Origin: a virus
Direction: 5' to 3' (one strand)
IMG/VR virus record: IMGVR_UViG_3300008259_000013
Coordinates: 92,172 to 156,171 of that record
DNA: 64,000 nucleotides
Each line of letters opens with the position of its first letter. The stretch's first letter is position 1. Positions 6,810-59,732 of this stretch are shown piece by piece. The notes beneath the pieces are model-generated. The model was not told where the DNA came from. It saw only the letters and a list, made by a program, of their open reading frames with translations, and did no database searches. A program made the translations under genes and the position numbers.

Positions 6810-7741
6810 ATGACTGCGAATCTGTAAGAAAAATACTTACTGACATAGGATATGTTTTAACTGATCATGGCCGAGAATATCGGACAAGACCTCTTTATAG
6901 AGATTCCGGTAACGATAATGTTCTTAGAATTTGGAAGAATTCTGGCCAATGGGTGGACTTCAAAGAAAACATTAGCGGTTCTATTGAAGATTTAGTAAAA
7001 CTTACCCTAAAACTTAAAACGATTGACGATGCTAAAAAGTGGATTTCTGAGAAAGGGATAGACACATCTTATTCTGAAGACCACCAGCAAAGAGTCACCA
7101 CCACCCAAACTACTGTTTTCGATAAATCTTTATTAATAAAGCTCTCAAGAGACGATTCTTATTGGGAAGGAAGAGGTATTTCAACTCAAACCTTGCAACC
7201 GTTCCAAGGAGGCGTTGCTTCTACAGGCAAGATGTTTAATAGATATGTTTTTCCCATCTTTAACTGCAAAGATGAGATAGTCGGATTCGCTGGGAGAGAT
7301 GTTTCTAAAACAAGTCTAGAAGGACGACCTAAGTGGAAGCTTATTGGAGATAAAAAAGAGTGGGCCTTCCCGCTAAAGGTTAATGCTAAAGACATCAAGT
7401 CTTCTAAAATAATTATCTTAGTAGAAAGCATAGGCGATATGCTGGCGCTTAGAGAAAATGGAATTAATAATTCTATTGTTTCTTTTGGTTTAAACCTTTC
7501 TCCTAAAATTATTTACTCTTTGATTGGCTATAATCCTAAAAAAATTATCATTGCTTTCAACGACGACTCTTTTAATAATGCTGCCGGAAATCTGGCGGCA
7601 GAATCAGCGCAGCAAAGGCTTTTAAATTACTTTGATCCAAGTCAAGTGCAAATCAAGCTTCCTTTCGGAGCAAAAGATTTTGGAGAAATGCATTTAAAAG
7701 ATAGATCTTTAGTTTTTAACTGGTATAATTCTATCCAATGA
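6806..7741 (+). CDS. DnaG-like TOPRIM primase with a Cys-less N-terminal domain
   Basis: A 311-residue primase. Residues 5-70 (YRTRPLYRDSGNDNVLRIW, then GQWVDFKENISGSIEDLV) follow the fold pattern of the DnaG/gp4 zinc-finger domain but lack the four metal-binding Cys/His residues. The RNA-polymerase basal region precedes the TOPRIM core: ILVESIGDMLAL with E207, then IIIAFNDDS with D253 and D254, the magnesium-binding residues. It lacks the long C-terminal helicase-binding domain of bacterial DnaG. It should synthesise RNA primers for the DnaB-type helicase encoded just upstream. A helicase-independent primer-synthesis role cannot be excluded. Start ATG overlaps the previous TGA (ATGA). Confidence 0.88.
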   Translation: MNDCESVRKILTDIGYVLTDHGREYRTRPLYRDSGNDNVLRIWKNSGQWVDFKENISGSIEDLVKLTLKLKTIDDAKKWISEKGIDTSYSEDHQQRVTTTQTTVFDKSLLIKLSRDDSYWEGRGISTQTLQPFQGGVASTGKMFNRYVFPIFNCKDEIVGFAGRDVSKTSLEGRPKWKLIGDKKEWAFPLKVNAKDIKSSKIIILVESIGDMLALRENGINNSIVSFGLNLSPKIIYSLIGYNPKKIIIAFNDDSFNNAAGNLAAESAQQRLLNYFDPSQVQIKLPFGAKDFGEMHLKDRSLVFNWYNSIQ

Positions 7742-32500: not shown

Positions 32501-33274
32501 CTTGCCATCTGCCGTTAAATCTGCATAATCATAAATACCAAGTGGCTCGCTTGCTCTAGAAATTCTATACTTTAAAGAAGTTTGGTTCTCTAACTGGAAC
32601 GGTATTTCAAAAATTGAATTATCCTGCGGTAAAGAATATCCACTATCATTATATAAAAATTTGTATCTAGTTGTTACTTCATTTCTATAGCCCACATATC
32701 CAGAATCAATATATGAATAAGTAGCATCAGTATTATTAGTGTATAGTGAAATATTAGTATTAGCCCAGTCTTCGCCAGAAACAGTTAATAGATCATTATT
32801 TGTTGACTGAGATTTTGTTAAACCTGTAATCTCATATCTTCTATATACTTTGCCAGGAAAGTCCATATCTGGCATAATAACATTTGGCTTTGACCCAGAA
32901 ACGAATCTATCTGTTATTTCAAAATCTCTTAAGTAATTGTAACCATCAATACCTAATAGCCCTTCTGTTATAAAAAACCTTGCTTTTGGGGCTTCTCCTT
33001 CGAAGTTGATGATAGAGAACTTTTTGCCTGTGACTGTAAATTTTGATGCGACGATGTCTTCCACCAACGGTCTTGGGACAGAATATCCATTAGGGCTATG
33101 GTTTGGGTTTTCGAAAAACGAAATCCAAAGGCCGTAAGTATATTTAGAAAAATCTGGTGTTATTCCAGAGCCCCCGCCGCTGCCAGAAGAACCAGATGAG
33201 CCAGAAGATCCTGATGAACCTACAGCACCTAAAACTGTTGTTATAAAATTTTTATTGTCTGTTTCTACGCTCAT
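23558..33274 (-). CDS. Giant tail fibre/tip protein (about 3238 residues) with collagen-like patches
   Basis: The second-largest gene of the window. After about 15 residues comes a Gly-Ser-Ser repeat (GSSGSSGSSGSSGSGGG), and a second one lies near residue 1115 (GSSGSSGSSGPG). Much of the rest seems built from degenerate beta units that recur with a strand ending in L-P-N/D/T/P and, 10-30 residues later, F-x-V/I-x-N (for example FYLPNLDISIGG, FLYLPNFNRFNVD, SIILPDISATISFVIKNVS, INLPPASSLQNKELFLICRN), a pattern common in fibre shafts. I chose the ATG at 33274 with GGAAG 8 bases before it; a TTG at 33289 would add 5 residues but no signal. Likely a trimeric, host-contacting fibre; no enzymatic motif was seen. 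Confidence 0.6.
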   Translation of the reverse strand: MSVETDNKNFITTVLGAVGSSGSSGSSGSSGSGGGSGITPDFSKYTYGLWISFFENPNHSPNGYSVPRPLVEDIVASKFTVTGKKFSIINFEGEAPKARFFITEGLLGIDGYNYLRDFEITDRFVSGSKPNVIMPDMDFPGKVYRRYEITGLTKSQSTNNDLLTVSGEDWANTNISLYTNNTDATYSYIDSGYVGYRNEVTTRYKFLYNDSGYSLPQDNSIFEIPFQLENQTSLKYRISRASEPLGIYDYADLTADGKAIIDYSKYKEEVSGVIDGQISYAFEPVTEISFTKEEFQNILDTDKIKTREIKNDSFFTGFKLSKSDNLFKFILLTTGDTEEIYKLDVQVERYNTREKPAVSGYVMSSYNLGAGAVNISLNAGGAVYPRISEDGEPFGYENVQDLIDVEQLNESEKYAQDIQIPEAGDEEDQSQLAKTIQDNFDALAKAYNDDFGEEDSRAENTEAWETRAEIDQNDQDLLTEANNEMPVYKTALPNFPLPKKIITRDFYSNYLNTGESYIVTPLSNYGLSPTFVSCGDQFGVLAYYINEDKNSTASEPVFRTVVNSTCDGYFIDATGLCKGDTALFDNNRYASDGLKIQNGSVTQIQSDGVITKNNYVNQESWLKAVNYFYTKNYVASFNVYPSLSENSYNTLFSQALRDVNERIGGPAIADGVNSFSSNTAKAPRVFVEREIYTKSYKANEAFELNQAILSGVYTPGDADLAAEEVEKLYCVQTYEPYEANSFTISKQNYYYPAQDYNEEVSFRRFLENSAASLSYQTGENFGAVSFKDQDIEVEKLFRIEYVTGNSFSYDDTSNFRAWSATAAPPSNITISNQDTKSYSYHLYGYNSSSAPLSFIKSNVQNGESATSASFSNLVVLKFIKQGLTNSVFQQEENEGDAKITKSYINTTIANNSGSLLDPSKVRINIQTYNYKVVANLENHQWTLFNQNPINNNIYGSRDSSNFSEPRFFQDDKEETKELLSTLFFFPNGSYTSKNYEGKPITTSSINALSDGLFENHIYIKEENETSKKYESNYVLETLENGYITKLRPSTEVLDGKGRFRNTRRLQITKVKYNFYTKDLVLIGDAGSPYSINFNYGWEYDLQYKLKTAPAGSSGSSGSSGPGASTGWTTMSKDVGFSKDIISAEYSAISPYYFSAEDLETPNYLSMVAFKTNLPLFLDDANYEFRIFKQEKLVVSSDSANVIKKTNFLPIKVDWNEVAGCGYYNIYQKDRNNKLTFLRSEPSGINSFSYVIPDVSQRNVDLGVYNFGANGNNYYDIVVSGIKSSVVKKKETLASEYGFEVGDSNSQQNTVTKFENVASYTPVSVSSPTYSQLLDFNNPESKTSGFKINQDYNEYYFVTDKADASLENIPSSFESYVLNTGNASCFVGGSSVNTNQYAKISNNGVITVANAASLPSSSFDLLDAEQDDDILYLSANVTVLNSSSIASKTLTLVNDSNSSINVTFGSTVSISANQTKKLLFSDDGVTKSIQTQSTYSNVTMQDSKIYHPKEGFINFNHTTGEFSSADSFANLPIYNFSKDSLVINGLSLDADSFNYVSWNGSSASKSQKTYFDGIKIYLKAKETEEDSTKLLKDDTDIILSQFSTAVGTTRDYFFLKDESINRALNIRIINGSSIEVLQRQYQDFKLTVTQKSASLVTYSIIYPSSSPFFELSNSREQLVLLKGDLVQYIDLKSLDAGLPKESFVYFVNKNSQSVFFYRNTQENIVYTLAENQIARAMLVTVGSTQVVRLDILNETLSHFYFDIDNSLISSSINILDLNFCGTQINLPPASSLQNKELFLICRNRFLPNKINKESVKDTENIISTEDNPSTLEINEIGDLAQNSICLRVTGSSSDALPILQRTSFLSRNVNGTVIDLEDNVIDRYHEDYFYIRNSQIDTFTIKDSYNRKYGYKGKIFLPTLEQSVGIQSFDSADGNNLYRIKEVNSIDFDYAPDEYVNGRLQASKPLIPDARIFSYESESGSTAKSFPNALATDQILINFAYDTVTVSVDSVTKTLKKNRLVKNSGANYVYPIYNNKEFFIAQVNSERTNTRKSGGTTFYYIIEADKADVDSIILPDISATISFVIKNVSGRPYEIKTLSGVLVHTLLPSSGNNQKLFTYTGAPYTVTTDTTDFSDSNIFGEVENVSYLPTSIALSNQAFDLEAEHPLASLWAAGFSKIDLIQDAFIDIDGDAIKLDIDYSVFDVYSSVSVSTSKIIYCYGRKAIDITQLGDKKYIVNDFYLFASYDGTKIKKEQFYLTDRVSDEFNAGAYNLKVIDTNHTDLTKFFKSQNAINGLPNVILIPITKYSSKFYLPNLDISIGGSTLASLLSGKKILFVNLVKSDSSAPNSIYNYSTAVTSNLLDVNSIALYSVSGSAWVKETSSLPQVKKVFATARNLKGISGLSTTEIVGGNEFLYLPNFNRFNVDINSFIDKSFRDFYVFNPCKYRMYIGSNNSLLGNGALTRVIRNATQNLFTASSLDLNASSVFSVTTLNYAEGRAPENLTQTVNELYPNLKFGARIKVIQNIGNSKYTYLFRYNSKNKAEEIIIKNREFGVLDLKDLTSYDANSKLFIYGSSQVNSSGNFFDSYSLKLLNAGLLGSEKFYIYNNTPYYLSIFFDFATETFCSIPPKSFIEISDSRVSFLGSYEKGIYYISKKDSSTNYLLKTDLKFFLNGIYDYVSFAGEKESDKDNKNIIITPLIKDETYASSYYYADQAIIETVVNNFRGIYITNLASMNLTNNTQSYNLLKPVYRITTAGHYLLTDNNNDLTVTAPSYGQQIFLINNCPRDIFVNILSDENRRRKVYRNSVMIVEAGPTSGVVSRYLKKAKARDEFYCIFNPNTAISTQREITLNLGIIRNEELLPILDDNQVEQKSYVKLLSKDGTSTTINLALRNYYNGKDIPTDSPSNVVGYEVGIGHETIYRFLFFDAYQSTYTLPGIQNGIKYQVSISQSFFDNINIPTDTAFTNTTELPYLKYKGKFYSDGETFVGEDVTTYEIKYPNFVRLYKVVEDIDRPFNKAEEKGEEGGADASITEEEEVAVDQLELFKAQIRNAYKSTANSIIAWIPRDQSAFWLNSDYVDDWWTISAIDNSQTITINLEGTNKTITFKRCEIKKTGLRSPIFNYNYSFFSALSPVRQMPDNRQLTIGLDANLNPTQINNIKKLLGQSQTADNTLLPQSEMEIGGLYVESLFPENTVDANYNIINNSDIEVNITISKIKSAPDIKFDDFSKSSVIKIINRK
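29911..29948 (-). repeat. Collagen-like Gly-Ser-Ser patch (internal)
   Basis: Four consecutive Gly-X-Y triplets (G-S-S three times, then G-P-G) in the middle of the giant fibre protein, probably a hinge or short triple helix between domains. Confidence 0.7.
33168..33220 (-). repeat. Collagen-like Gly-Ser-Ser patch (N-terminal)
   Basis: Four G-S-S triplets followed by G-S-G-G-G-S-G near the start of the giant fibre protein. It separates a short N-terminal tether from the first beta domain. Confidence 0.7.
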
Positions 33275-33275
33275 G

Positions 33276-36200
33276 TTATTGTCTTCCAACCATATTTGGA
33301 CTTATTGGTACTGATTGATCGCCAGAATTATCATAAGAGTCTCTCATTAGGTCTTCAAATAAATAATCTCCTATAGCAGAATCATAACCTCCAGGTATAT
33401 TTATTCCACTTAAACCAGCCCTAATAATAGCTTCTACTTGTCCCGGACTCATTTCAGAACCTTTATTCACAAAACCATTACACATTGCTCTTAAATAATA
33501 TTCCATTTGTATATAATGGTCGGAATACATTATCGTGTTTTTATCGACCTTTGGGATAAGTTTTACAAAGTAAAATCTTGGATAACAACACCCAAACGGT
33601 CTTTGTTTTTGCCAAAAGTTACCATTATCCATTGAAACATCCCCATTTACGCCTCTCGGGCATTGAATGCCAGCCATTGTATGACAAAGATAATTTATTA
33701 ATGCATTTTCATCTGTTCTATATGAATCAACATTAACTGCCGCAAACTTTATAAACTCTTGGATTTTGCTACTTAGTCTTCCTTTAGGAGTTCCATCTCC
33801 AGTATTTTGTAATCTATTTTCTATAATTACTTTAACGATATCTGATTTCGGGTCGTATGGATTTAGTCTAACTATTGATTTTATTTTATATGGAGGTCTA
33901 TAAATAGGACAACTAGCTGCAAAGTTTGCTGGATGATTTAAATTTCCGCGCCAGTCTCCGTACTGAGGTTTTGTATTTGCGCTTTCTATGTAGTTGTATC
34001 CAGATGGCGCTTCTACAATCAAAGGCAAATCGTTCGGCTTAGAAGACACATTAGCCAAAGCTTGCTTCACATTCCTTGATGTGCCTCTGAATGGCTCAAG
34101 AGACTGGCTAGCCGTTAAGCATCTTGCGTTTAAAGCTCCCATTATGTCTCCATACATTGAAGGCTTCCAATAAGAGCTATTAGACCAGTGGTATAAATTA
34201 TAAGTCATGAACATGGTCCATTCGTTACTTATATTGCCAGATGGTTTTTGTTTTATTCCATCTATAATGATTTCTCCCTTATCTATTCCTTTAATTAAAG
34301 AGTCTGGTGTTATTCCATCTAACTCAAAAACTCCGATTGTGCCCGTAGAATACTCTGAAACAAAATAATAATCTCCGCCCTTGAATGTCGCGCCGTGCTT
34401 TAATATTTTCTTTTTATTATTATCTATATATATAACATGAGAATTTGTTCCCCTTAGTGAGGGTTCTAATTCTATCACAATATAATCCTTGCCTTTGACT
34501 ATTGGAATAAATGTTTCTGCTTTTGCGCCTCTTATCGATCTGTTGCCTACTTCAGTAACAGATGGCCCCATGTTTCTGAAGATATCTACGCCAGTATTTT
34601 TCATACCCATTGCGTATCTATTAAAATATAAAACAGAATCGCCATCTTCATTTACTTCATAATCCAATAAAGCTGTTCTATCAGCCATTCTTACGTTACT
34701 AGTTATGAATTTTCTAGCAGATTCATACACTGGATTAGCGCTAACATAAGCATCATTTTGATAAAGAGTTTTCTTTCTAAAGTTATACGCTACTCCATAT
34801 CTTATATAATTTGTAAATACTGTTTTAGCAGTATCCGCATTAAAATGCCCTACTGGGTCCATTTGCCCAGCATCTGTTCCTGCGCCTTCTGTAGTCGCCA
34901 CTCTCATCATTACATAAGCATCAGCGGCGCTTGGCTTCATTTCTAGAACATGAGCGAACTGTATTGTTATGGCAAAGTTATTTTTTGTTACTGTTTGAGT
35001 TACAATTTTCTTTCCTAAATTTATAGAACCAAAATTATTGTAAGAAGGATTAGGTATTCCATTCGAACCTCTTATCTTAAAAGAAACACTCCCTTTAACT
35101 GGATAAACAAAATAGTGTATTTTATTGAATTGATAAACTTTATAAGTGTTAGCAGAGTTTAAGGAAAGATCATTAACTACTCCAGTTCTATTATTTAAAA
35201 TATACTTATCATTAGAACTCAATGACACAGATTCGTAAATTTCATTATTAACATAAATATCAATAAACATTCCAGATAACAGGGACTCCCCGTTCTCCGA
35301 AATACCACAAGCTATGTCAGAAGTTTGTATAAAGATAGCCGATAAACAAAATCTATTGTTAGATCCTGGAGGATTAGTATTAAAAGCTCTTAATTCTTTG
35401 CCAGATTCATCTTGACCTTTAAATAAAAACGTATCGCTAGCATTTGTTGGTAAAAAATAATCATTTGTTGCCGTATTTTTAACTGCCAAATCAAATGAAA
35501 TATTCCACAAAAAACTTCCTGGCCCTTCTGGGAAAAGTTCAGGATAGCCAAAAGAGTCATATTTTATTTTTTTATTTCCCAAGCTATCCGTCTTTATTTT
35601 ACCCGAAGAATCTAGTTCATATTTTGGTCTAGAATAATTTGGGGCTAAAAGAAATTGTCTTGAAAAAAACTTTTCAAAATCAAACCCATGAGTTATCACG
35701 GTTCTTCCTTTTATTGAATGTCTAGCTCTTTGATCTTCTGTGCCTCTGAAAAAACTTAAATAATAAAAAATAGCTTGCTCAATTTGATCTTTGGAAGCAT
35801 TCTTTTTTCTGAAAATCCCGCCTTTTCCCTCTTGGTCAGGCACATAGCTAGGCGCATATCTTCCTGAAGATATTGCCTCTGTAACATATCTTAAATGCCT
35901 TCTGGCCGCAGAGCATATCCCTAAAGAAGAAAGCTGCAACTCTTTAGTTGATGGCTGCAAGGCATTTCTTGGTAAATATTTATAATTTTGCTCAAACGCT
36001 AAACAACCTCTTTGTATTTCTGAATCGCTCCATACAATATTTAAGTTCGGATCGCCGCTTATTTTTTTAGGCATTTTGTCTGGCAGCGCTAGCTCTAAGC
36101 CGCTTAATCTAATCGGCTCAGACCAATATCCATGAACTCCATCTCTCGTATTGTCTTTAGTACCATTAGCTTGTGTTACTCTTGCTGCGTTGCCAAAAAT

Positions 36201-47455: not shown

Positions 47456-50400
47456 TTATCTCTTAAAATTCAAGGCTGCTGGTCCTAGTTTTTTGAGTTC
47501 TGGAATCTTGTCGAACAAGATGCTGATGATCCCTTGCATTGCTTCGTCTGGAGCATTTTGTATAGATGTCCTTCCATCTATATTTATAACATTAGAGTTA
47601 GAAACACTGCTAGAAGAAGCTCCATTAGGGAATGCTGATGTTATTCCATTTCTCATTGCTTCTGTTATTGCATCGGAAAACTCCCCAATTGCAAAATTTG
47701 GAACGCTTCCTTGAGCAGCAGATGGGAAAGACATTCTTGGAGCAGACATTCTCATTCTCGAATAAACATCCCCAGAAGACATCATGCTGTTGCTCATAGC
47801 GGCGAAGTTAGGTACTTTCCCGCTAGTCCTTTCTTGCATTACTTGTTCAGCGGTAATCCTTCTCCTTACGGCTTCTTCTAGAACATCCTTGGGGAAATCT
47901 TGAGCTCCGGTAGCCGCTGTGTAATCTCTAGAAAGTTGACTATTTATTTCTGGAACAGACATTCCTTGGATAGCTGCGCCTCTTCTTGCGGCGGCCTCTT
48001 CTCTATCTGCGATTACTCTTTCGGCGCTTCTTCCAGTTTTAGTGGCTTCTTCTAATACATCTTGAGAAAAGCCTTTGGGTATTTCTGGAATTAGATAATT
48101 TTTATTACCTTTATTCGCGTTATCTCTTTCCCTCGAATAGTTCCTGTAAGACTCGAATAAACTCTTATCTCCTTCGAAGTCTTTCTCTGTGAATTTGCCA
48201 AAAGTTTTTTCTTGATCAAGTAAATACAAAGCCTTATCTCTAGAAGTTTTTAGCCCAGAGAGATCTTCGTTAGGAGTTAGCCCTCTAACTACAGTTTTTC
48301 TTAAAGAAGCGCTAAATTTTTCTTGTTCTTCATTTCTGGCCGCTTCTTCTGATTTTATAGCTTGTTCATTTTCTTTTGCTACTTTTGCTTTTTGAGCTAT
48401 GGTTGCAGCTATTCTTTGTTGCTCTTCTTGTTCTTTCTGCTTTTGAGCTCTAGCAGCGCTTATTTCTGTAAGCTCTTTGCTCAGTCTATCTGTTATTCCT
48501 TCTGTGGATAATCCTTGCCCTTTGTTTAGATCTTCCAAGGCAGTTCTTCTAGTTCTAATATAATCTGACATAGAAGCTTTTCCTTCTATTACTTCTTTCT
48601 TACTTACTCCTTTTTCATATCCAAATCTAGCATTGTTTGCTATAGCTGAAGCTTCTGCTCCAGCTATAAATTCTCCTAGCGTATTTGCTTTACCTTCAAA
48701 TCCAAGTTTATTGCCTAATACATTTCCTAATCTATATCCAATCTTTGCAGTAGCTACAGCAGCTCCTACTGGGCCTCCTGCGGCAGTTAATGCTGTGCCT
48801 AAAACATCTAAGTATCCTCCTCCTTGTTCTGCTTTACCAAATAAAACATCAGACCAATTTGATGCTAATTCGAAATTTTTCGCATTGACTATATCTCTTG
48901 CCAATCCTATACCTGCAGCAGCCCCGAATGCTTTGCCAGCTAAACCTTGGGCTCCTTTGCCTAAAATTCCAGCTAAACCTGACGCCCCGTAAAGCCCAGC
49001 TTGAGTCGCAGAAACAGCAGCGTTTCCGTATTGGCCAGCCTTGAACTCATCTCTAGCTTGCAAACCGCTAGTCAAAGCTCCTGATATGCCAGCTCCACCA
49101 GCAGCTAACTTGCCTAATGCCCCCGTAAAAGTGAGAGGCAAATTTTTTGAACTCACAAAACGGCCTGTTGTTGGATCTCTGAGAGGCTTGCCCTTGCTTT
49201 GGCTGCCACTTTTAATTAAATTACTGACCAAGCCAGTCCCTAACGCAAGCGAAGCAGTTCCGTATATTGCCGCATCAACTTTATTTCCTTGGTTAAAAGC
49301 ATCAACGGCTTGCGCCCCTAGCGCGGCGGCAGATAAACCAGAAAGAGCAGTTCCTCCTTTGTTTATCGCATTTTTGCCAAAAGACATTAAGCCAGCACTA
49401 GCTTGCCCTAATAGACCTTTAGCTCCAGTAAACAAATTAGATCCAGTAGAACCCAATTTGCCAGCAATATTTTGTGCTTGATCATATAAAGCTGGCCCAA
49501 CTTTACTAGCTAATCCTTTGGCTTTAGAGAACTGATCTTTTACAGAATTTAGTATAGAAGAAGACAGACTTGGCTTCTGAGAAAATCCGGAAGGAAGGCC
49601 GCCAGACAGCCCGGCAGAAGACCCTATAGATGGCCTTATTGATTGAGGCAAAGCAGGCGCTCCAGTAGGATTAATACCTACCGCCGGAGATCCACTAGCC
49701 AAACCTCCTGGTAACGGTTTTTGTCCAAAAATATTTTTAACTAGCTTTTCGGATAATCCTCTACCCATAAAACCTGTAGAACCAGTTTTATCGCTTGGAT
49801 TTATCTCGAAAACAATAGTGCCAACTCGCCCTCTTCCTCCAGAATAAAATTCTCTCGACTTAACTCCAGCATCTAAGGCTGATTGCAAAGTCGTGCCTCC
49901 GACATCTACTCCAAAAAATGCATTTTTAATTCCTTTACTCTTTACTAAAGCTCTGATAGAGTCGAAAGCAGAGGCTTCCGCTGATCTCCTAAAAGATCTA
50001 GTCATCTTAACGGCTTCGCTTTTCGAAAGTCCAGCGTCCATATAAGCTTTTATGGATGGCCCGGCAGAAGGATCAAACCCTGTCGCCTTTAAAACCGTTC
50101 CACCTTTTATTATTTTAATATTTCCTTTATCGTCTACAGCTACGTGGACTCTTAATTCATTATAATAAGTAGGAACTTTTTCTTGAGTAAAAAATCCACT
50201 ACCTGTACCTCTATTAAATTTACCGATTATAGATCTAGCATCTGCGGTTGTAAGCTTCCCACCTAATCCATAAACCCCTTTGCTTTGGACATTTGATTCG
50301 CCGAAAGCTGTTTTAATAAGAACATCTTTGCCACCAGAAATTTTATCAATTTGAGCTAATAAGTTCTTAGGAGTCAATTTGCCTTGTTTATCCAGCTTAG

Positions 50401-53400
50401 TGAGAATGCTATCTATAGATTTTGATCTGGCTATTCCTGGTAAACTTAATTCATCTAATTTAGTTACTCTAGGATCCTTTAAAGCAAGAATAGATTTTTT
50501 CCCAACGCCTTCGCTTAATTCTGTCGATATTGTTCTGGCGCCTCTAGGCAAACTTTTAGAATCAATTAAAGAAGTATCAACAGTTCCATTCGGATTTACT
50601 TTTCTAAAACCATTGTCTATATTATCCCATACATATAATTTTCCAAGCTTGGCGTTTTCTCTAGCTCTTAAAGCCGCTTTTTCTCCGAAAGCAGCATAAT
50701 TGGGAACGAATCCCGAAGACCTCATACCCAAACTTCTAAGTCCGTTTTTTTCATCTATGCTATTCGTAACCGCAAAACCGAAAGGATTGGATTGCGTTAC
50801 TAAATCTGGACTTCTTTCCAAATTAATATTAGCCATAGCGAAATTTGGGACACCCATTATCCCTCTGCTGGCTAGTGCTGTTTTTTCTCTATTTACGGCG
50901 TCTGCTATCGAGCTAGAATATTTTGTTAAACCATTTGCATTGCTTGGTATTCCAGTCGGCATTAATCCGCCCATACCTGCGTAAGCAGAAGCGGCTGCCT
51001 TGACTTTAGATTCGTTACTTGCTTCTGATAATTTTACTTCATCAGCTGTAATATTCGCTAAAGTTGTCTTAATGCCTGTGGTCCCGAATGTAGACTTCAA
51101 GCCATTTTCAAAAGCAGTTATTAAAGCCTTGCTTTGAGATTGAGATATTTCTATTAATTTTTCTTTGATGGGAGAAATTGTATTTTCTAAAACTCTTAGA
51201 GCCGCATCTTCTGTTTTGGCTTGTCTTACTGATTCTACATTAAATTTTTCGAGATCTCCCATCGCCTTCTGAATATCTTTTGGAATTTCAGGGCTACCGA
51301 ATAAAGCATTAGTTTTAAGCCCGGCAGATTCAAGAAGATAACTTTGATCAAAAGCTTTTCCTCTCAACAAATTAGCAGTTTGTCCGAGACCCATCATTTG
51401 AGCCATGCCAGCTCTTCTGAAGAGATCTTTTTGCATGTCAAAAGCATTTAGCCTTGTTAATTCTGCTTTTACAGCTTGGATATCAGAAGGTTCTTTGCCT
51501 CCTTTGGTCATTAATAAACCTGGATATTTCTGTAAAGTATCAGTCAAAAAGTCTGTCGCCCCAGCAATTTGGCCTCTTCTAGAACCAATCATTGATCCTA
51601 ATTGGTAAGTTAATGGTCCCCTTATGGAAGAAGCCATTGCCTCTGCTCTCATTTGAGGATTCAATGAGGCTCTTATATCTCCACCGAAAGCTATTTTTTC
51701 TTGCAGAGCCAAAAACTTTAATTGTATTTTTTTGGACTCTTCGGCTATTATTGTTGCTTTATTTATATCTCTTGATTGCTGAGAATTAAAATCAATAAGC
51801 TTTTGTATGCCTTTGGATTGTGCTTCGCTAAGTCCTGGTAATTTTTGTAAGCTTTCTAATTCTCTACCCGCGCCCGCGCCCGGGGCCTCAATATTTCTTA
51901 GTCTGGCTTCTACCGCAGGAGACAAGTTAGCCAGAAATTCTTTATCATTTAATTGAGTCAATAATGAATTCTGGAAAGAAACCGCAGCATCAGCTTTCTT
52001 TATCGCCAGCGTAGCCTCTGAAGAGGCAGATATGCCAGCTCGTCTGCTGAATGTTCCTGCTAGTTCTGCCAATTCTGGAAGTTGTTGTTCTAAAGCTTTC
52101 TTTATTTCGGTTCTTATATCTCTAGCATCTTCGACAGCTTGTCTTCTTGAAGCTAATGGCTTGCTTATTCTTGCTATTTCTTTTGCTTGCGCGGAAGTAA
52201 TTTTTTCAATTCCTTGGGCCACTTTTAGTGCTTCTATAAAAGCTTTTTTCAATTGATCAGTATTGAGTTGATCAGAAAATTCTTTTACGTCTAATCCGGC
52301 CTTCTTGAGTATTTCGCCGAAATTAGCTGTAGTAGCTTTAGAAAGATCTGTTTTAAATATATCAGTGTTTGCCCTATTTATTATTTCATTAAAGAAAGAG
52401 CTTAACTCTGCTGGGGCTTGTTCTCCAGTTATCTTTCCTTTTCTTCCGAATTCTAAAGCAGAAGTTCTTATTGCTTCTTGTGTTTGTGCTTTCTTTAAAT
52501 TTTCTTCTAGTACAGTAATTTGATCACTAATTGATGTTTGCCCAGCCAATCTAGAAATTAATTCCGGATTCTTTATTGATATTTTCTTTATTAAGTCTTC
52601 TCTAGTTTTGACAAGCTTTACTATTTCTCTAGGATCTGCTTTTGGGTCTTTGTATGCAGCATCTAATTTAGACAAAGAAGCACTAAGCTCTGTTGTATTT
52701 TCGGCCAAGTCTGTGAAAGCTTTCTTAGAGCGGTCTAGTGCATTTTCAAATTTTTTGCTTTGGATTCTTTGATCTAAATCTCCTCCTGACAATTCGCCCA
52801 ACTTAACGCCACCATAAATTTGCGCTGCGCCTGTTAATCCAGCAGCTATTCTGCTGCCCGTTGAAGCTTTTTTAGACAATATAGCTGTTCCTATATTTTT
52901 TACGCCTGCGGAAGCTGGCAAAGCTTGACTTATAAATTTTGACACAGCAGAAGGAATCACTTCTCTTTCTGCCAATTCATCTATTATGCTGGCGTAAGCT
53001 TGTTTTTCAAAAAGTTCTAACGCTCCAGAAATTGGATTGGCAAGTTTTCCGCCTGCTTTGCCAAAAAAACGAGATATTAAAGCTGTTGGAATTTTAGCGA
53101 AATTAGGAACTACGTCTTTTAACCCATTAGGCTCATCTTTTTTGTTTGTTACCGCTATTGGATTTCCGCCTCTATCAAAATGAGCCATAATTTGAGAGGC
53201 TGGTAAGCCACTCATTGTTTTTTCTCTTCCTATAGCATCTGATAAGCCAGCAAAATTAGGAATGCGCCCGCTTGCGAATCCAATAAGTTTAGATATTTCA
53301 TCTCCCTTTTCAAATCTCATTCCGAACGGAAAAAAAGAAGCGAGTGGTTGATATCTAGTATTTGATGGGTCAGATTTGTTAGCTGAAACTTTTACTCCAG

Positions 53401-56400
53401 TTAGTCTTTCAAATTCTGAAGGAAGATCTATGCCTTTAGAGAGAGAAGTTTGAGCGTCTGCATAAGTAGATCTTGGATATAATGGATGATAAGAGTTTGG
53501 AGCGGCAACTATGCCCCCGACATCAGATACCCTTGAAACAACAGAGGAAACAGAATACTTATTTTCTCCAGAGTATTTTTCTACCATTGGATCATGTAGC
53601 CCGGCAGCTCCTTCTCTAAATTTTTTGCCTATAGCTATGGCGCTTAGTCCTTTTTTTGTTAAATATTTTACTGCCTGATCATAAAGAGCGCCAGTGCCGA
53701 GCAAAGACGCACTTGATGGATTTATAGACAAAACAGATTGAACGAAAGAGGGAGGGAAATCTTTTTTATTTTTAGATACTAATTGTTGCAAGAAAAATAT
53801 ATTTCTTTTATTCATCCCGCCTTTAGCAGTTCCATATTTATTTATAGCGCTAGATGGAACGTGAGGCGCGTAATACGCTCTTCCGCCTTGTTTTTTGGCA
53901 TAATCATGCAAAACTTGCATTGCGTCTACGCCAGCAGATCTTGCTGTAGAAGCATAAGATCTATTAGGAAATTTTAATCCATATCCAATACCACCACTAA
54001 TTTGACTAGAAGGATCTAAATTAGCTTTAAGAGAATCATAAGCGCTAGTTAATATTAAATTGGGACCTTCTCCACCTATTATTAATTTTTCTGGATTAAC
54101 TTTAGCAAAATTAGGAACATATCCGCCTGCCCTTCCTTCAATGCCAGATAAAGCAGATCTTACTGTCTCTGGGCTATATTTTTCTTTATGTACGCTATTA
54201 GATTTAAAAATAGCAGCCTGCAGACCTGCCGCTCCAGTTTCTATTTGATGTAATTTAGCAAATTCATTAGCTAGTGATATCAATTTTGCCGCTTCTGTTT
54301 TGCTAGGTTTTTTGCCTCCAAGGATTGCTTGGATTACATTTGTATCTATTGGAAAGGCTGTTTTATCTTGCAATATTGCTCTGGCGTAATGTCTGGTTTT
54401 GGCTGTATCATCACTTCCTAAATCAACCCCTCTTAAAGCCTTCGACAAACCATATCTTCTGGCATCATCTCTAGTTCTTATATTTCCTTCGGCAGATATT
54501 TCGCCTTTTTTGCCGAATAAACCTAAAGACGCTACATTTTTGTGCCTGCTAACTATTTTTGATGGAGCTAAATCAAAATAATCTTCTACATTAGTAGATT
54601 TTGTTTTCATGTACCTGTTGAATATTGGAGCCGCGAATTGAGCAGCTACATAATCAGGCACAGAAGGAGAAATAGCAGAAGTTATATTAGCGTAAATTTT
54701 AGCTTCTTGTGGGGAAAGTTTTTTGCCACTAAATTCTTCGCCATGTATATTATAAAATCCTGCGTAATCCTTTCCTTGTTCATAATGCTTTTGAAATCTA
54801 GCAAAGATTTCTTTCTTTCCAATTCTTTGGATGATGTCTTTGCGTTTTGCAAAATTAGGGATTCTACCTCCAGCAAAATTTGTTACAATGTCACTAATGC
54901 CAAAAGATCCATCTATAATGCTATTTCTTAAAAGTTTTGCATCTCCTTTAAATTTTTGAGACGCTAAGCCAGCAACTATAGAAAAAATATTTTTACCACT
55001 TACTTTACTATTATCATAAGTTAAACCATCATCAATATTTACTGACAATGCGGTATTTTTAGCTGAACCTTTTTGTCTATGTATTAATTGAGGAAAGGCG
55101 ACCTTTAAAACTTGTTCTATGCCATACTTTCCTGATCTAGCTAATGAAGCATCTGTTATATCGTAAACATCATTCGCTTGGGAAGACAAAGACGCGCTTC
55201 TTACCGGCAAGCCCATTCTTTTAGCTGTCTTGCCAAGTCTTTCGAACATTTGCCAACCCTGACCTTTGGCTTCGCTTTTAGAAAAAGTTAAGTCTATAGC
55301 TTTTTTATCATTAGATAATTTATATCTAAGATAACTGTAAGTCTCTGGATCTACAAATCTTCTATCTCCAGAAACAAAAGATTTTGTAGAAGAAAAAGCA
55401 AAATTAGGAACATAACCTCCAGCATAAAGAAAATCTTCTTTTTTACCATACTGTGCGTCTTTAACAAAAACAGTATTTCCAATTTGAATAGCCTTAGAAC
55501 CGCCTACGACTGGTTTTTTTGTTTTTCTGTCGTAGTAATATGAATGTCTATCAGGATTAAAGCCTACTTGAGTCCAGCTACTTAGATCTTTCGGTAAAGA
55601 TTGATTTTCGGATAGAGTCCCTGAAATTTTTAACAATGGACTTTTATTTGCTCCAGCACCTATGGCTAAAGAAGCTTTTTCCAAAGCAGTAGATTTATTC
55701 ATCACTGGATTATCAAAAGCTACAAATGAATCGTAGGACTTAAACCCTTCTGGGCCTAGAGTCTTGACTACTCCTACGCCTTTTCTAGTCATAGAAGGAA
55801 CATCTTGACGCACACTTATGCTGCTTCCAGCAGGAAGTTCTGATAATTTTCCTACTCTTTTAGCTTGCTCTTTATCTAAAGCATTTCTAATCAAAGATTT
55901 CGAAGGTAAATTTTTTATAGAAGAAGGCGCGACTACTTCTCTTATTGGTATATCTCTTTCTATTAAAGCTTCCAACAAGTCTCTATCTATATTTTCTCCA
56001 GATTGAAGTTTTTGCAGCATCCCTCTGACCTCTGGCGAATACATGCGGCCAGCTTTAATTGCAGCTTTGCTCTCTGGGTATTTTGCAAGAAATTCTTTTG
56101 GCATTTTATTGGTCTTGGACCAAGAAAAATTAGGAACGTATCCAGAACTCATTCTGGGGATATCTTGCATTTTTCTATATTTAGGAATTATCGCGGTGTC
56201 TCCTGTGCCAGCAAAGTTAGGAATAATATCCTCTTCGCTATTGACCATTACTGGCTGAGTCTTGCCTTTAATTGTCGCTTGTATTAATTTAGCTTTTGGA
56301 TTTTTAGCTCCATAAGCCTTGGCCATAGCGACCTCTTCTTGAGCTCCGCCAAATGTCGGGACATATCCAGAAGCTCTTACTCTGCTTGGGCCGCCTCTAG

Positions 56401-57991
56401 CAACAACTGTAGGAATTATTCTAGCCCTTAAAGCTTCTTGTGTTTTTAGTTGTTTATTTTGCTCTCTTAAAGTTTGCAATACTGCTTGCTCCGCTGCGGC
56501 CAATGAAATAGTTCCCTTTTGCACAAGAGCAACCAATTTAGGACTTTGTGATAAAATATCATTAACAGCTTTTTGTGAAGCTAATGATTTTTCTCCAGCG
56601 AATACTTCATCAAAATTTTTGCTTACATCTTTTATAGAACTAACTCCGAATTTAACCATCTTAGCTAACAAAGTGCCTCCGATTCCCACTAGAAGAGGGA
56701 TGCTACCAGTCGCTATAGTTTTTCCAAGGGCAGAGGCAGCCCCTTTAAAAAAAGACTCTCCTACAGATTTGCCGCTTTCCTCAGATTTTCCTAAAAGATC
56801 ACTCGTAGGATTTACTGCTTTTAATAATATTTCAGAAAATGAACTACCGATCCTAACTAGCGGCTCTAACAATGGCTTACCTAATGCGGCAGCAGCTTCC
56901 TGAGCTTGGTTTTTTGTTTGTTGTAATAAAGCTGATAAGCTCTTATTTAATTCTTCGTTCTTTTTCTTAGCTTCATCTGTTGCTGCGCTAGAAATTTTTA
57001 AAGCACTAGCATAAACGCTATTTGAGCTAGAAAGATCTTTAATTAAAGCGTTAACTTGGTTGATTTGGTAAATACCACCAATTAATTCTGCTGTTCTTGA
57101 TTTTTCTATCTGACTTAAATTTTTTGTAGCATCAGCGTAATTCTTAAGCACGGACAAACCATCCAATAAGAATCCATTTTGATCTTTAATAGCAACACCC
57201 AACTGCTCCAACTGGCTAAGAACCTCTGGTCTTTGTAGGCGAGTAAATATTGTCTTTAAAGCGTTACCAATTACAGCGCCACCACGACCAGTTATTTGTT
57301 GAGCGGCTGTAACTGTAGCTATTAGCTTGTCTATGCTGATTCCACTTTCTTCCGCAGAGCTACCTACACGGCTAAGAGCCTCGTTCAATTGAGCAGAGCT
57401 AACAGCAAATCTTGTATCAACAGCAATTAACTTATTGACAATGTCTGTTGAAGTCAAGGCTTCTTTATTGAAGCTATTTATTGCAGTAGTGACACCGTTT
57501 ACAGCATCTGCATAACTAATTCCAGATATTCTTGCTAGTGTTAAAGCATCTTCTGTTCTTCTTAATACTTCATTAGCAGACAAACCTTGTCTTGCAAATT
57601 CTTTAGCAGCTTCAGAAGCAGCCTCGAAAGGAACAGCAGCATTTCTTGCTACTTTAAACAATGACTGAGAAAATCCTTCTAGCTGATCCCTAGATTGTCC
57701 TAAAAATGTATTTAATTCTACAAGTTGCTTATCTATTTCTACTGTGGCTCTTGCGCCAGCTCTAATAGCTTCTGAAACTTTATAAATCGCACCAGCGGTT
57801 AATCCGAAGGCTGTAACGCGGGCTGTAGCAGCTTCCAGAGATTTTCTGAACTCTGTAACATCGCCGCTTATCCTTCCTAATGGTTGACCAAATTTAACAG
57901 AAGACGCTCTTTTACTAATACTATCAAAAGCTACGTCTACCTGCTTTGTGTTTGGTATAAGATTTACATTTACGTTTACATTAGCTGGCAT
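47456..57991 (-). CDS. Tail tape measure protein (3511 residues) with 12 PNFA motifs and embedded domains
   Basis: The protein sets tail length and is ejected with the DNA. Residues 1-400 are the conserved phage tape-measure core (AAKEFARQGLSANEVLRRTEDALTL split as AAKEFARQGLSANEV and LRRTEDALTLARIS, then GRGGAVIGNALKTIFTRLQ). At 1.5 angstrom per residue the whole chain would span about 530 nm, fewer if domains are folded. Hydrophobic helices occur near 440-465, 2810-2950 and in the Gly/Ala-rich part. Twelve copies of G-x-V/I-P-N-F-A (P at 545, 591, 620, 862, 1045, 1293, 1578, 1629, 2382, 2430, 3394, 3431) divide the chain. Residues 1630-2300 are coiled-coil-like. An ATP-grasp-like domain lies at about 2500-2745. 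AAGGAAAC lies 5 bases before the ATG. Confidence 0.93.
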   Translation of the reverse strand: MPANVNVNVNLIPNTKQVDVAFDSISKRASSVKFGQPLGRISGDVTEFRKSLEAATARVTAFGLTAGAIYKVSEAIRAGARATVEIDKQLVELNTFLGQSRDQLEGFSQSLFKVARNAAVPFEAASEAAKEFARQGLSANEVLRRTEDALTLARISGISYADAVNGVTTAINSFNKEALTSTDIVNKLIAVDTRFAVSSAQLNEALSRVGSSAEESGISIDKLIATVTAAQQITGRGGAVIGNALKTIFTRLQRPEVLSQLEQLGVAIKDQNGFLLDGLSVLKNYADATKNLSQIEKSRTAELIGGIYQINQVNALIKDLSSSNSVYASALKISSAATDEAKKKNEELNKSLSALLQQTKNQAQEAAAALGKPLLEPLVRIGSSFSEILLKAVNPTSDLLGKSEESGKSVGESFFKGAASALGKTIATGSIPLLVGIGGTLLAKMVKFGVSSIKDVSKNFDEVFAGEKSLASQKAVNDILSQSPKLVALVQKGTISLAAAEQAVLQTLREQNKQLKTQEALRARIIPTVVARGGPSRVRASGYVPTFGGAQEEVAMAKAYGAKNPKAKLIQATIKGKTQPVMVNSEEDIIPNFAGTGDTAIIPKYRKMQDIPRMSSGYVPNFSWSKTNKMPKEFLAKYPESKAAIKAGRMYSPEVRGMLQKLQSGENIDRDLLEALIERDIPIREVVAPSSIKNLPSKSLIRNALDKEQAKRVGKLSELPAGSSISVRQDVPSMTRKGVGVVKTLGPEGFKSYDSFVAFDNPVMNKSTALEKASLAIGAGANKSPLLKISGTLSENQSLPKDLSSWTQVGFNPDRHSYYYDRKTKKPVVGGSKAIQIGNTVFVKDAQYGKKEDFLYAGGYVPNFAFSSTKSFVSGDRRFVDPETYSYLRYKLSNDKKAIDLTFSKSEAKGQGWQMFERLGKTAKRMGLPVRSASLSSQANDVYDITDASLARSGKYGIEQVLKVAFPQLIHRQKGSAKNTALSVNIDDGLTYDNSKVSGKNIFSIVAGLASQKFKGDAKLLRNSIIDGSFGISDIVTNFAGGRIPNFAKRKDIIQRIGKKEIFARFQKHYEQGKDYAGFYNIHGEEFSGKKLSPQEAKIYANITSAISPSVPDYVAAQFAAPIFNRYMKTKSTNVEDYFDLAPSKIVSRHKNVASLGLFGKKGEISAEGNIRTRDDARRYGLSKALRGVDLGSDDTAKTRHYARAILQDKTAFPIDTNVIQAILGGKKPSKTEAAKLISLANEFAKLHQIETGAAGLQAAIFKSNSVHKEKYSPETVRSALSGIEGRAGGYVPNFAKVNPEKLIIGGEGPNLILTSAYDSLKANLDPSSQISGGIGYGLKFPNRSYASTARSAGVDAMQVLHDYAKKQGGRAYYAPHVPSSAINKYGTAKGGMNKRNIFFLQQLVSKNKKDFPPSFVQSVLSINPSSASLLGTGALYDQAVKYLTKKGLSAIAIGKKFREGAAGLHDPMVEKYSGENKYSVSSVVSRVSDVGGIVAAPNSYHPLYPRSTYADAQTSLSKGIDLPSEFERLTGVKVSANKSDPSNTRYQPLASFFPFGMRFEKGDEISKLIGFASGRIPNFAGLSDAIGREKTMSGLPASQIMAHFDRGGNPIAVTNKKDEPNGLKDVVPNFAKIPTALISRFFGKAGGKLANPISGALELFEKQAYASIIDELAEREVIPSAVSKFISQALPASAGVKNIGTAILSKKASTGSRIAAGLTGAAQIYGGVKLGELSGGDLDQRIQSKKFENALDRSKKAFTDLAENTTELSASLSKLDAAYKDPKADPREIVKLVKTREDLIKKISIKNPELISRLAGQTSISDQITVLEENLKKAQTQEAIRTSALEFGRKGKITGEQAPAELSSFFNEIINRANTDIFKTDLSKATTANFGEILKKAGLDVKEFSDQLNTDQLKKAFIEALKVAQGIEKITSAQAKEIARISKPLASRRQAVEDARDIRTEIKKALEQQLPELAELAGTFSRRAGISASSEATLAIKKADAAVSFQNSLLTQLNDKEFLANLSPAVEARLRNIEAPGAGAGRELESLQKLPGLSEAQSKGIQKLIDFNSQQSRDINKATIIAEESKKIQLKFLALQEKIAFGGDIRASLNPQMRAEAMASSIRGPLTYQLGSMIGSRRGQIAGATDFLTDTLQKYPGLLMTKGGKEPSDIQAVKAELTRLNAFDMQKDLFRRAGMAQMMGLGQTANLLRGKAFDQSYLLESAGLKTNALFGSPEIPKDIQKAMGDLEKFNVESVRQAKTEDAALRVLENTISPIKEKLIEISQSQSKALITAFENGLKSTFGTTGIKTTLANITADEVKLSEASNESKVKAAASAYAGMGGLMPTGIPSNANGLTKYSSSIADAVNREKTALASRGIMGVPNFAMANINLERSPDLVTQSNPFGFAVTNSIDEKNGLRSLGMRSSGFVPNYAAFGEKAALRARENAKLGKLYVWDNIDNGFRKVNPNGTVDTSLIDSKSLPRGARTISTELSEGVGKKSILALKDPRVTKLDELSLPGIARSKSIDSILTKLDKQGKLTPKNLLAQIDKISGGKDVLIKTAFGESNVQSKGVYGLGGKLTTADARSIIGKFNRGTGSGFFTQEKVPTYYNELRVHVAVDDKGNIKIIKGGTVLKATGFDPSAGPSIKAYMDAGLSKSEAVKMTRSFRRSAEASAFDSIRALVKSKGIKNAFFGVDVGGTTLQSALDAGVKSREFYSGGRGRVGTIVFEINPSDKTGSTGFMGRGLSEKLVKNIFGQKPLPGGLASGSPAVGINPTGAPALPQSIRPSIGSSAGLSGGLPSGFSQKPSLSSSILNSVKDQFSKAKGLASKVGPALYDQAQNIAGKLGSTGSNLFTGAKGLLGQASAGLMSFGKNAINKGGTALSGLSAAALGAQAVDAFNQGNKVDAAIYGTASLALGTGLVSNLIKSGSQSKGKPLRDPTTGRFVSSKNLPLTFTGALGKLAAGGAGISGALTSGLQARDEFKAGQYGNAAVSATQAGLYGASGLAGILGKGAQGLAGKAFGAAAGIGLARDIVNAKNFELASNWSDVLFGKAEQGGGYLDVLGTALTAAGGPVGAAVATAKIGYRLGNVLGNKLGFEGKANTLGEFIAGAEASAIANNARFGYEKGVSKKEVIEGKASMSDYIRTRRTALEDLNKGQGLSTEGITDRLSKELTEISAARAQKQKEQEEQQRIAATIAQKAKVAKENEQAIKSEEAARNEEQEKFSASLRKTVVRGLTPNEDLSGLKTSRDKALYLLDQEKTFGKFTEKDFEGDKSLFESYRNYSRERDNANKGNKNYLIPEIPKGFSQDVLEEATKTGRSAERVIADREEAAARRGAAIQGMSVPEINSQLSRDYTAATGAQDFPKDVLEEAVRRRITAEQVMQERTSGKVPNFAAMSNSMMSSGDVYSRMRMSAPRMSFPSAAQGSVPNFAIGEFSDAITEAMRNGITSAFPNGASSSSVSNSNVINIDGRTSIQNAPDEAMQGIISILFDKIPELKKLGPAALNFKR
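47699..56359 (-). repeat. G-(Y/R/F)-(V/I)-P-N-F-A peptide motif, 12 dispersed copies
   Basis: The coordinates span all copies inside the tape measure gene. The Pro codons end at 56359, 56221, 56134, 55408, 54859, 54115, 53260, 53107, 50848, 50704, 47812 and 47701. Eight copies read exactly V/I-P-N-F-A after Gly plus one residue; variants are P-T-F-G, P-N-F-S, P-N-Y-A and V-V-P-N-F-A. Synonymous codons differ between copies, so the peptide rather than the DNA is conserved. Confidence 0.9.
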
Positions 57992-58016: not shown

Positions 58017-59012
58017 CTATAATCCGTGCATTTCGATAAAATCTTGTTTTGTGAGCTTACCACCTTTTTTCGCGGCCAACTCGTTGAGTGTCACAGCTTT
58101 ACCGCCCACCATTTTTTCTAGCTCTTCTCTTGTTGCTCCAGTATAGCCTACACCACTCGACTGGCTTCCCGCAGTTGGCATAGAAGCAGAGTTTTCTACC
58201 GACTCATACCATTCTATCATTTTGTCTGGATCAGAAACTACGTCAGATGGAGGATTTGTTTGGGCTTGATTTTCCATCAAAGACTTAAAGTACTTTGCCT
58301 GAGAGAATAGATTTACCTGTAATATAGTTAAATCTTTCACATGTTTGCCAAAAAAATTTAAAGGACTATTTTCGCATAAATTAAAAAGACTCATGAAAAA
58401 TGAACAAGCGCAAATTCTCTTTATTTTATCGTGAGCGAACTTTTGGTAAAAACGCGTTAAAATAAGAACAAGATTATCTAACTCTCTATCCGATAATAAA
58501 TCAAATTCTTCCTCTGAAAAAAAACGGTTCTTAAATTCTTTATCGCTGTAGAAAGAAAGATATATCACTAATTCATTTATTTTTTTGTCGGTATAGCTTT
58601 CGGCGCAGAAACCAAGCATGCTCAGTTTTTCGTTTTCTAATTCAGAGAGTTGCTTTGTATAGTTTTTTATTTTGCTTTTTGCGTCGTTAATTTGTTTTTT
58701 TATGATAAGATTTTTCAGTAACATTTCTGTATCTGAAATTTGACGCTCTAAGTTTTGTATTTCTTTTTCTTTTTCATTAGACCATAGTTGATTTCTTATT
58801 AAAAAAGTAAGTTTCTCTTCTTTAGACTCTAGTCCTTTATCTGTTGCTTCTTGGCTAAATTTTCTTCTATATTTATCTAGATCTCCGTTCTCTAGCTCAG
58901 TGAAGTGTTTAATAAAAATAGGCTTTCCTAAGTATTCATCCTCAGAAAAGCCTACAGCTATCTCTTTGTACAAGCCTTTGTAAAAGCTTATTTTTTCATA
59001 AAGATCGCTCAC
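58017..59012 (-). CDS. Presumed second tail-assembly chaperone gene (331 residues, GTG start)
   Basis: Lies directly before the tape measure, where siphophages make the longer chaperone product (GT-like). The sequence is mainly helical and charged (KEIQNLERQISDTEMLLKNL, KQINDAKSKIKNYTKQLSEL are clear coiled-coil repeats), with a compact region at 190-240 containing RICACSFFMSLFNLCENSP, and a short C-terminal helix K-L-T-K-Q-D-F-I-E-M-H-G-L. The frame is the same as that of the upstream gene and only one stop (TAA) separates them. The GTG has no credible Shine-Dalgarno sequence. The name rests on position and helical character. Confidence 0.5.
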   Translation of the reverse strand: MSDLYEKISFYKGLYKEIAVGFSEDEYLGKPIFIKHFTELENGDLDKYRRKFSQEATDKGLESKEEKLTFLIRNQLWSNEKEKEIQNLERQISDTEMLLKNLIIKKQINDAKSKIKNYTKQLSELENEKLSMLGFCAESYTDKKINELVIYLSFYSDKEFKNRFFSEEEFDLLSDRELDNLVLILTRFYQKFAHDKIKRICACSFFMSLFNLCENSPLNFFGKHVKDLTILQVNLFSQAKYFKSLMENQAQTNPPSDVVSDPDKMIEWYESVENSASMPTAGSQSSGVGYTGATREELEKMVGGKAVTLNELAAKKGGKLTKQDFIEMHGL

Positions 59013-59018
59013 GCTATG

Positions 59019-59732
59019 TTAACCGACCAACTCTTCTTTTGGCACGCCAGAGTTGAGCTGTCCAATAAGGAAACCACCCTTTTCGACTACTCCGCTCAAG
59101 AACTCGTCCCCAGAATCTTCTATCTGATTTAATCTTTCGAGTTTTTGCTCGAATGAACCTTCTCCAAATAAACAAGTCTGAGACCCTTCCTCGCCCTGAT
59201 AAAGAAGATTTAATACAAACCATACATTCAAGAAATCAGAAGCTCTCTTTTCTGCTGTATTATCAAACAAAGAATTTTGTACGTTTTCATAGTCAAAAAT
59301 CTTTTGGCGCAGCACTTGATATTCTGAATTCAGAGCGGCATTCTTTAATTCTTTTTCTGCGTCACTTAAACTCGAATCTTGGCGAACCTTTTCTAGTTCA
59401 ATTTCAATTGCTATTGCCTTAGAATAATTTTCCGTGTGCGCCTTCTTTTCTTCTTCAGACGGCAACACACCATCTTGCTGGAACTTACGCAAAAGGTAAT
59501 TTCTAGTAACAAGACCCATCTTTATGCCTTCGGAAACCTTAACTGAATAAAATACGCTCGCCTCGTCTTGGATCTTTCTATTTGGCCTCAGAATATAAAA
59601 CTTGTGCGGGACTTTCTTTTCCACCTCTTTGGTGATCTGTATTTCTTCGCCAGCAGCGTTTACTTCTGCTGTCGTTTCTTTTACCTTTTGAGTTTTTTCG
59701 ACTTCAAAACTATGTAGCCATTTTTCTTTCAT
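59019..59732 (-). CDS. Presumed tail-assembly chaperone (237 residues)
   Basis: Sits between the major tail tube gene and the tape measure, the usual position of the tail chaperone. The first 60 residues form a beta-rich unit (EKWLHSFEVEKTQKVKETTA, then KVPHKFYILRPNRKIQDEAS), and the rest is helical with an acidic middle (EIELEKVRQDSSLSDAEKEL) and the segment SDFLNVWFVLNLLYQGEEGS. Chaperones of this kind coat the tape measure before tube assembly. Its TAA stop is followed in frame by H-S-V and the next open frame. It starts 3 bases after the upstream stop, without a Shine-Dalgarno sequence. Confidence 0.55.
   Translation of the reverse strand: MKEKWLHSFEVEKTQKVKETTAEVNAAGEEIQITKEVEKKVPHKFYILRPNRKIQDEASVFYSVKVSEGIKMGLVTRNYLLRKFQQDGVLPSEEEKKAHTENYSKAIAIEIELEKVRQDSSLSDAEKELKNAALNSEYQVLRQKIFDYENVQNSLFDNTAEKRASDFLNVWFVLNLLYQGEEGSQTCLFGEGSFEQKLERLNQIEDSGDEFLSGVVEKGGFLIGQLNSGVPKEELVG

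Follow-up and report, generated by a model that had tools for sequence, protein, structure and literature searches.

The 3511-residue tape measure protein (TMP) encoded by the ORF 47456-57991 (minus strand) of the window, the whole stretch of 64,000 nucleotides of viral DNA that was analysed, is probably a cargo-carrying ('polyvalent') tape measure, in which a short repeated peptide motif is the joint of exchangeable modules. The motif sits at module borders in unstructured linkers, and modules are exchanged at the motif. Among the matches listed, its repeated occurrence is restricted to one TMP family, which belongs to a large and apparently undescribed family of environmental phages.

The ORF has the homology of a TMP core (Pfam PhageMin_Tail, 4e-26; PHROG tape measure, 5e-48), is very long and lies in a conserved gene block, the upstream genes of which are kept in 21-24 of 24 relatives. 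The virus record, of 174,551 bp, also carries phage replication genes for a DNA polymerase, a DnaB-like helicase and a UvsX-like recombinase. The N-terminal core is distantly related to the TMPs of Bacillus and Lactococcus phages, and the distant TMPs of named phages show 22-28% identity. A scan of genome contigs returned two MAG contigs only (Verrucomicrobiales and Flavobacteriaceae bins), which is too weak for a host call. A second giant ORF, 23558-33289 (minus strand, 3243 residues, TTG start), is in the same strand block as the TMP. The virus's own genome also contains, in L279, a Gly/Ser/Thr-rich repeat ORF (6141-7310, plus strand) that is overlapped by a long open frame rich in proline running the other way (6176-7180, minus). 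The features of the TMP and its neighbors are collected in Table 1.

Table 1. Features of the tape measure protein and its upstream neighbors, in window coordinates; aa, residues of the TMP unless a gene length is given.
Feature	Position	Strand	Basis or remark
237-aa gene, second upstream neighbor	59019..59732	-	24/24 relatives; 66/70 motif loci with enough upstream DNA (among the matches listed)
331-aa gene just upstream of TMP	58017..59012	-	24/24 relatives; 67/70 motif loci with enough upstream DNA (among the matches listed)
Tape measure protein	47456..57991	-	Pfam PhageMin_Tail E 4e-26; PHROG tape measure 5e-48
TMP core, PhageMin_Tail, aa 119-301	57089..57637	-	Pfam E 4e-26
Border unit A, aa 541-624	56120..56371	-	GYVPTF at 545, motif 591 in '..NSEEDIIPNFAGTGDTAIIP..', motif 620
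Degenerate motif PTFG, aa 545	56348..56359	-	sequence
Motif PNFA, aa 591	56210..56221	-	sequence
Motif PNFS, aa 620	56123..56134	-	sequence
Module 1, aa 624-858	55418..56122	-	domain common to giant multi-domain phage proteins; AF2 pLDDT 83
Motif PNFA, aa 862	55397..55408	-	sequence
Module 2, aa 866-1041	54869..55396	-	GNAT-acetyltransferase-like fold (AF2 and Foldseek PDB)
Motif PNFA, aa 1045	54848..54859	-	sequence
Module 3, aa 1049-1289	54125..54847	-	relatives search: same-sample contig and one 15-residue match only
Motif PNFA, aa 1293	54104..54115	-	sequence
Module 4, aa 1297-1574	53270..54103	-	homolog lies between motifs 744 and 997 of L262
Border unit B, aa 1575-1632	53096..53269	-	motif, about 50 aa '..DAIGREK..NPIAVTNKKDEPNGL..', motif
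Motif PNFA, aa 1578	53249..53260	-	sequence
Motif PNFA, aa 1629	53096..53107	-	sequence
Second unit B-like pair, aa 2379-2433	50693..50857	-	motifs 2382 and 2430
Motif PNFA, aa 2382	50837..50848	-	sequence
Motif PNYA, aa 2430	50693..50704	-	sequence
Motif PNFA, aa 3394	47801..47812	-	sequence
Motif PNFA, aa 3431	47690..47701	-	sequence

The protein contains 11 motifs of the form [VI]-P-N-[FY]-[AS], comprising nine exact PNFA, one PNFS (residue 620) and one PNYA (residue 2430). Six of them have the full G-x-[VI]-P-N-F-A; those at residues 591, 1629 and 2382 lack the glycine at position -3. A sequence-only reading had counted 12 copies. Eleven are confirmed in the relaxed form, and the remaining one, at residue 545, is the degenerate GYVPTFG. 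The same reading gave correctly the lengths of four gaps (242, 183, 248 and 285 residues) and the grouping of the motifs in twos or threes, and its statement that the gaps differ in sequence agrees with BLAST, which finds no match between them. Chance or composition is ruled out as the source of the motif, since 2000 shuffles of the protein contain 0.0085 motifs on average and one at most, and since two motifs occur in none of 1212 control ORFs. The motif is absent from all other window ORFs of at least 100 residues and, elsewhere in the 174.5-kb record, from the ORFs of at least 120 residues.

Several motifs belong to larger border units. Unit A is 73% identical in the closest relative (L010) and has similar counterparts in many others. 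Units like B close the module zone in many relatives, with their two motifs spaced by 54-78 residues. The window protein is unusual in having the extra motif pairs 2382/2430 and 3394/3431, which lie far into its C-terminal part.

A search of viral contigs with the first 464 residues of the TMP returned 25 loci, comprising the same sequence on another contig (L009) and 24 others. The motif is carried by 20 of these 24, that is, by every one in which the motif zone is covered; three of the other four (L024, L025 and L026) have no long ORF reaching the zone, and the fourth (L018) breaks off at residue 631, ahead of the first motif. The motif was also used by itself in scans with two DNA patterns (GF-I-PNFA and GY-V-PNFA) that each gave at least about 120 stretches. 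These scans found at least 211 ORFs with G[FY][VI]PNFA, at least 182 of which have two or more motifs; the family is thus sampled by its motif, and many of the loci are fragments. Among the matches listed, the TMP core is present in all 100 N-complete ORFs that have two or more motifs; it is missing from seven N-complete ORFs, and each of these has one motif. In the controls, 1212 non-TMP ORFs with 449,000 residues, three ORFs have one motif and none has two. The confinement of the repeated motif to tape measures, which the sequence-only reading had named as support, is therefore borne out among the matches listed, and the motif is not common in unrelated proteins. Nor is it a general feature of TMPs, because none is found in five distant ones (PSS2, Stills, PMBT69, 2S-4 and phi6255). 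A TMP of the present family did not turn up in any of the named phages.

The motif profile, derived from 783 distinct contexts among the matches listed, is A/S-x-G-F/Y-I/V-P-N-F/Y-A/S. Conservation in these contexts is confined to about positions -5 to +4, and the flanks beyond hold little information. The codons for P, N, F and A, taken from 687 distinct motif DNAs among the matches listed, are close to the proteins' own codon use, which means that the peptide, not the DNA, is conserved. This is stronger backing, across the family, for the earlier suggestion that differing codons reflect selection on the peptide. It also bears on the idea that what matters is the DNA of the motif, serving module shuffling as a recombination site or homology anchor, with the peptide as a by-product. 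Modules do break exactly at the motif, as this idea predicts, but the near-background codon use and the occurrence of the peptide variants I/V, F/Y and A/S make it very improbable, and a DNA-level site as such is rejected by the codon use. The motif DNA may act as a secondary homology anchor between close relatives. The same conservation makes it improbable that the motif is a passive linker that tolerates the insertion of any domain. Its flexible position between folded domains would fit such a linker, but a linker is not normally held to P-N-F/Y-A/S over the 783 distinct contexts among the matches listed, and Gly/Ser/Pro linkers would drift.

The family TMPs share an overall plan, with a constant N-terminal core, a variable zone punctuated by the motif, and a C-terminal part mostly free of it. 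Among the TMPs in the matches listed, the coefficient of variation is 0.72 for the module zone, compared with 0.13 for the N-terminal core and 0.29 for the C-terminal part. The spacing of the motifs is irregular, from 8 to 1491 residues, and the last motif lies at a median of 47% of the chain (both among the matches listed). One option of the sequence-only reading was that the motif is a binding site for the tube protein, repeated along the tail. The motif is indeed repeated within a protein housed in the tube (PMC8718954), but the spacing is irregular, the motifs track the modules, and the motif-free half of the chain argues against a tube-binding repeat; we consider this option extremely unlikely.

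The position of the motif at module borders is most directly seen in comparisons of relatives. The window protein and L010 are 73% identical up to motif 620, after which L010 resumes at window motif 862 with 61% identity. Module 1 is therefore present in the window and absent in L010, exactly between two motifs. Likewise, a 137-residue module of L248, between motifs 629 and 766, is missing from L227, and the sequence ahead of it is 86% identical. Homologs of module 2 occur three times in L232 and three times in L262, with motifs at their joints. In comparisons between TMPs, 34% of the ends of homology blocks fall within 12 residues of a motif, compared with 19% at random. With the motifs masked, blocks start just after a motif and end just before one, the total effect in this masked test being modest (38% versus 28% within 20 residues). 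The claim that the motif splits the protein into domain-sized, exchangeable modules is thus upheld by relatives in which swapped modules break at the motif. There is no cargo between motif pairs spaced by 8-57 residues, and the motif is therefore more than a cargo border.

The predicted structures are in agreement with these borders. Module 1 is folded from about residue 632 to 858 in the AlphaFold2 model (mean pLDDT 83), and its ends are unstructured. In the model of residues 535-1060, which is weak overall (mean pLDDT 55), module 2 is folded, and the motifs at 545, 591, 620, 862 and 1045 are in, or at the edge of, stretches with pLDDT below 50. The models thus place the motif outside folded domains and not inside continuous ones. 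A border defined independently of the motif comes from the motif-less homologs of module 1, which align to TMP residues 632-856 by the medians and thus stop a little short of the flanking motifs (617-623 and 859-865). As homologs of module 1 in other carriers have no motif, the motif is ruled out as part of the module itself and belongs to the TMP carrier rather than to the cargo.

The modules between motifs have a median length of 243 residues among the matches listed, and at least 374 of them form at least 142 clusters. Most of 133 module representatives have no Pfam family match, and the term 'enzyme' is therefore shown for a minority only. The 133 include GNAT acetyltransferases, a tRNA nucleotidyltransferase (PHROG E 8e-58), a cytidyltransferase-related region and P-loop domains. 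The strongest individual example is L240:3939-14582, a single TMP ORF of 3548 residues. Its residues 126-314 match PhageMin_Tail, and a tRNA nucleotidyltransferase lies between its motifs 1209 and 1684, where residues 1241-1368 match the poly(A) polymerase/CCA-adding head (52 bits, cut-off 23); a PDB search confirms CCA-adding enzymes (2e-15). The profile of an SNase-like family (L126), built from two sequences, matches thermonuclease at 1e-6, and that of another family matches a P-loop protein, also at 1e-6. A HAD-like cluster (DxDGT), which gave no PDB profile match, and PD-(D/E)XK-like modules, which were looked at by eye only, are not claimed.

Module 1 of the window has homologs at 58 loci besides the window's own sequence. 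It rides in giant phage proteins of 1400-4000 residues, one of which contains a C5 DNA methylase, and in Roseobacter phages and podovirus ctYwJ313 it is part of a protein adjoining the portal gene. Foldseek against BFVD gives a best E of 1e-22, and proteins with this fold bear the names ART-PolyVal-like, Zeta toxin, PcfJ-like or tail lysozyme. Searches of the PDB found no match and no solved structure for it, and a search of plasmids found none. Judged by homology, the same putative cargo domain is present in several kinds of phage carrier. The domain (L285-L342; L272-L274; consensus 'WTQVGFNPDRHSYFYDR') is widespread and unnamed, and weakly resembles gp82 of mycobacteriophage L5.

The five best PDB matches of module 2 are AcrVA5, an anti-CRISPR acetyltransferase, and At1g77540, with probabilities of.94-.99 and E of about 0.05, which is above 0.001. 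Module 3 has no Pfam match, and its likeness to DNA glycosylases was an impression with no match behind it, so it is not claimed. The stretch after residue 2433 looked ATP-grasp-like by eye, for which Pfam and PDB searches gave no support. The earlier description of the modules as cargo domains is backed by the enzyme-like modules of the family and by a module common to polyvalent-type phage proteins.

The two genes immediately upstream of the TMP gene accompany the motif-bearing TMPs (Table 1) and are found at none of the five loci of motif-less TMPs. Neither the 331-residue nor the 237-residue product has a family match. It is possible that they are tail assembly partners, and we regard them as candidates for this role; the co-occurrence could be explained by shared descent alone. 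In Bacillus phage 2S-4 and Mammaliicoccus phage phi6255 (L037 and L038) the gene directly upstream of the TMP gene is annotated as an integrase/recombinase.

A Pfam scan found no protease among the TMP neighbors, which bears on the suggestion that the motif is a proteolytic site. According to this suggestion, P-N-F-A would be cut by a protease of the phage or of the host, either within the virion or during entry, so that each cargo domain is freed and the ruler is left in the envelope. The motifs do lie in flexible stretches at domain borders, the conservation over about nine residues is typical of cleavage sites, a single-chain carrier of several enzymes would gain from release, and autoproteolysis has been proposed for the polyvalent protein DdrB of phage P1 (PMC5512222). 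However, HEXXH occurs in only 5 of the 374 modules among the matches listed, and cleavage at the conserved motif pairs 8-57 residues apart would free useless short fragments. Cleavage at the motif is therefore rather unlikely, though plausible.

We tentatively favor, at somewhat less than even odds, a different role, in which the motif would be a short recognition peptide for one common partner acting in trans. The likeliest partner would be an assembly factor by which each cargo segment is kept threadable, the products of the two upstream genes being candidates. Docking of this kind is favored because the eight or nine residues stay constant from one unrelated module to the next, with the flanks free to vary, and because the conserved motif pairs 22-78 residues apart, as in border units A and B, would be hard to understand as release sites. 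As for the build of the whole protein, the N-terminal core of about 540 residues and the long C-terminal part probably act as the ruler. The zone between them is probably a cassette region, where phages add, lose, duplicate and exchange domains that fold on their own and are in many cases enzyme-like, with [AS]-x-G-[FY]-[IV]-P-N-[FY]-[AS] as the joint at both ends of modules. In known phages the TMP lies in the lumen of the tube and is ejected before the DNA, and in lambda it is loaded with assembly chaperones (PMC8718954). Because the TMP is ejected in those phages, we infer that the modules would pass through the tail with it and act in the host early in infection.

This arrangement suggests a second role for the tail ruler, that of a delivery chain for several cargoes. 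In its fullest form, for which the chances are not far below even, a peptide recognized in trans at every joint would load or release changeable enzymes (acetyltransferase-like, nuclease-like, tRNA nucleotidyltransferase and NTPase-like) that enter the host before or with the DNA, and the TMP would be the counterpart of polymorphic effector carriers. If this is true, a large class of early effectors delivered by phages can be recognized from a signature of one line of sequence, the motif, and at least 142 module clusters, most of them without a Pfam match, can be found by reading between motifs. The motif would also offer a handle on how a tail ruler carries folded cargo, with the joint peptide as a candidate loading or release signal and as a natural swap point. 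A 2023 survey could not confirm recent mosaicism of TMPs (PMC10684548); the clean insertion events at defined joints described here bear on that remark. In the open-access literature we found no description of the motif or of motif-bordered cargo in a TMP, and no phage paper containing the motif strings.

Related systems are already known, namely TMPs that bear enzymes against the cell wall, polyvalent proteins, and the TMP-like effectors, with swappable domains, found in contractile injection systems (CIS). Enzymatic inserts are known in the TMP of mycobacteriophage TM4, and lytic domains in the TMPs of SPbeta-type and enterococcal phages; these act on the cell wall. The likeness to the present protein is a TMP core that bears catalytic domains; the difference is that those domains are directed at the cell wall, whereas here several exchangeable non-wall domains are strung one after another between motifs. 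Polyvalent proteins (Iyer et al. 2017, PMC5512222) are likewise giant multi-domain carriers of exchangeable effector domains. Like them, the present TMP unites, in a single chain encoded by an invasive element, domains that differ in biochemical activity, as the modules differ in fold and family in both the window and its relatives. Module 1 is common to giant phage proteins and resembles, at the fold level, entries named ART-PolyVal-like, Zeta toxin and PcfJ-like. However, the word 'tape' is absent from the main text of PMC5512222, whereas here the carrier is a TMP and a joint peptide punctuates the modules.

The Sle1/Tme effectors of contractile injection systems (PMC13277306) also have a TMP-derived carrier with a swappable functional domain, packaged in the tube. 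They differ in that they are described with one C-terminal functional domain and belong to bacterial CIS, and the passages on them mention no repeated joint motif. The present TMP is encoded not in the CIS gene cluster of a cell but in a viral record with phage replication genes. Polymorphic toxins (PMC3482391) share the combination of a constant delivery part with variable domains; there it is usually one toxin at the C terminus, whereas here several internal modules are arranged in series within a phage ruler.
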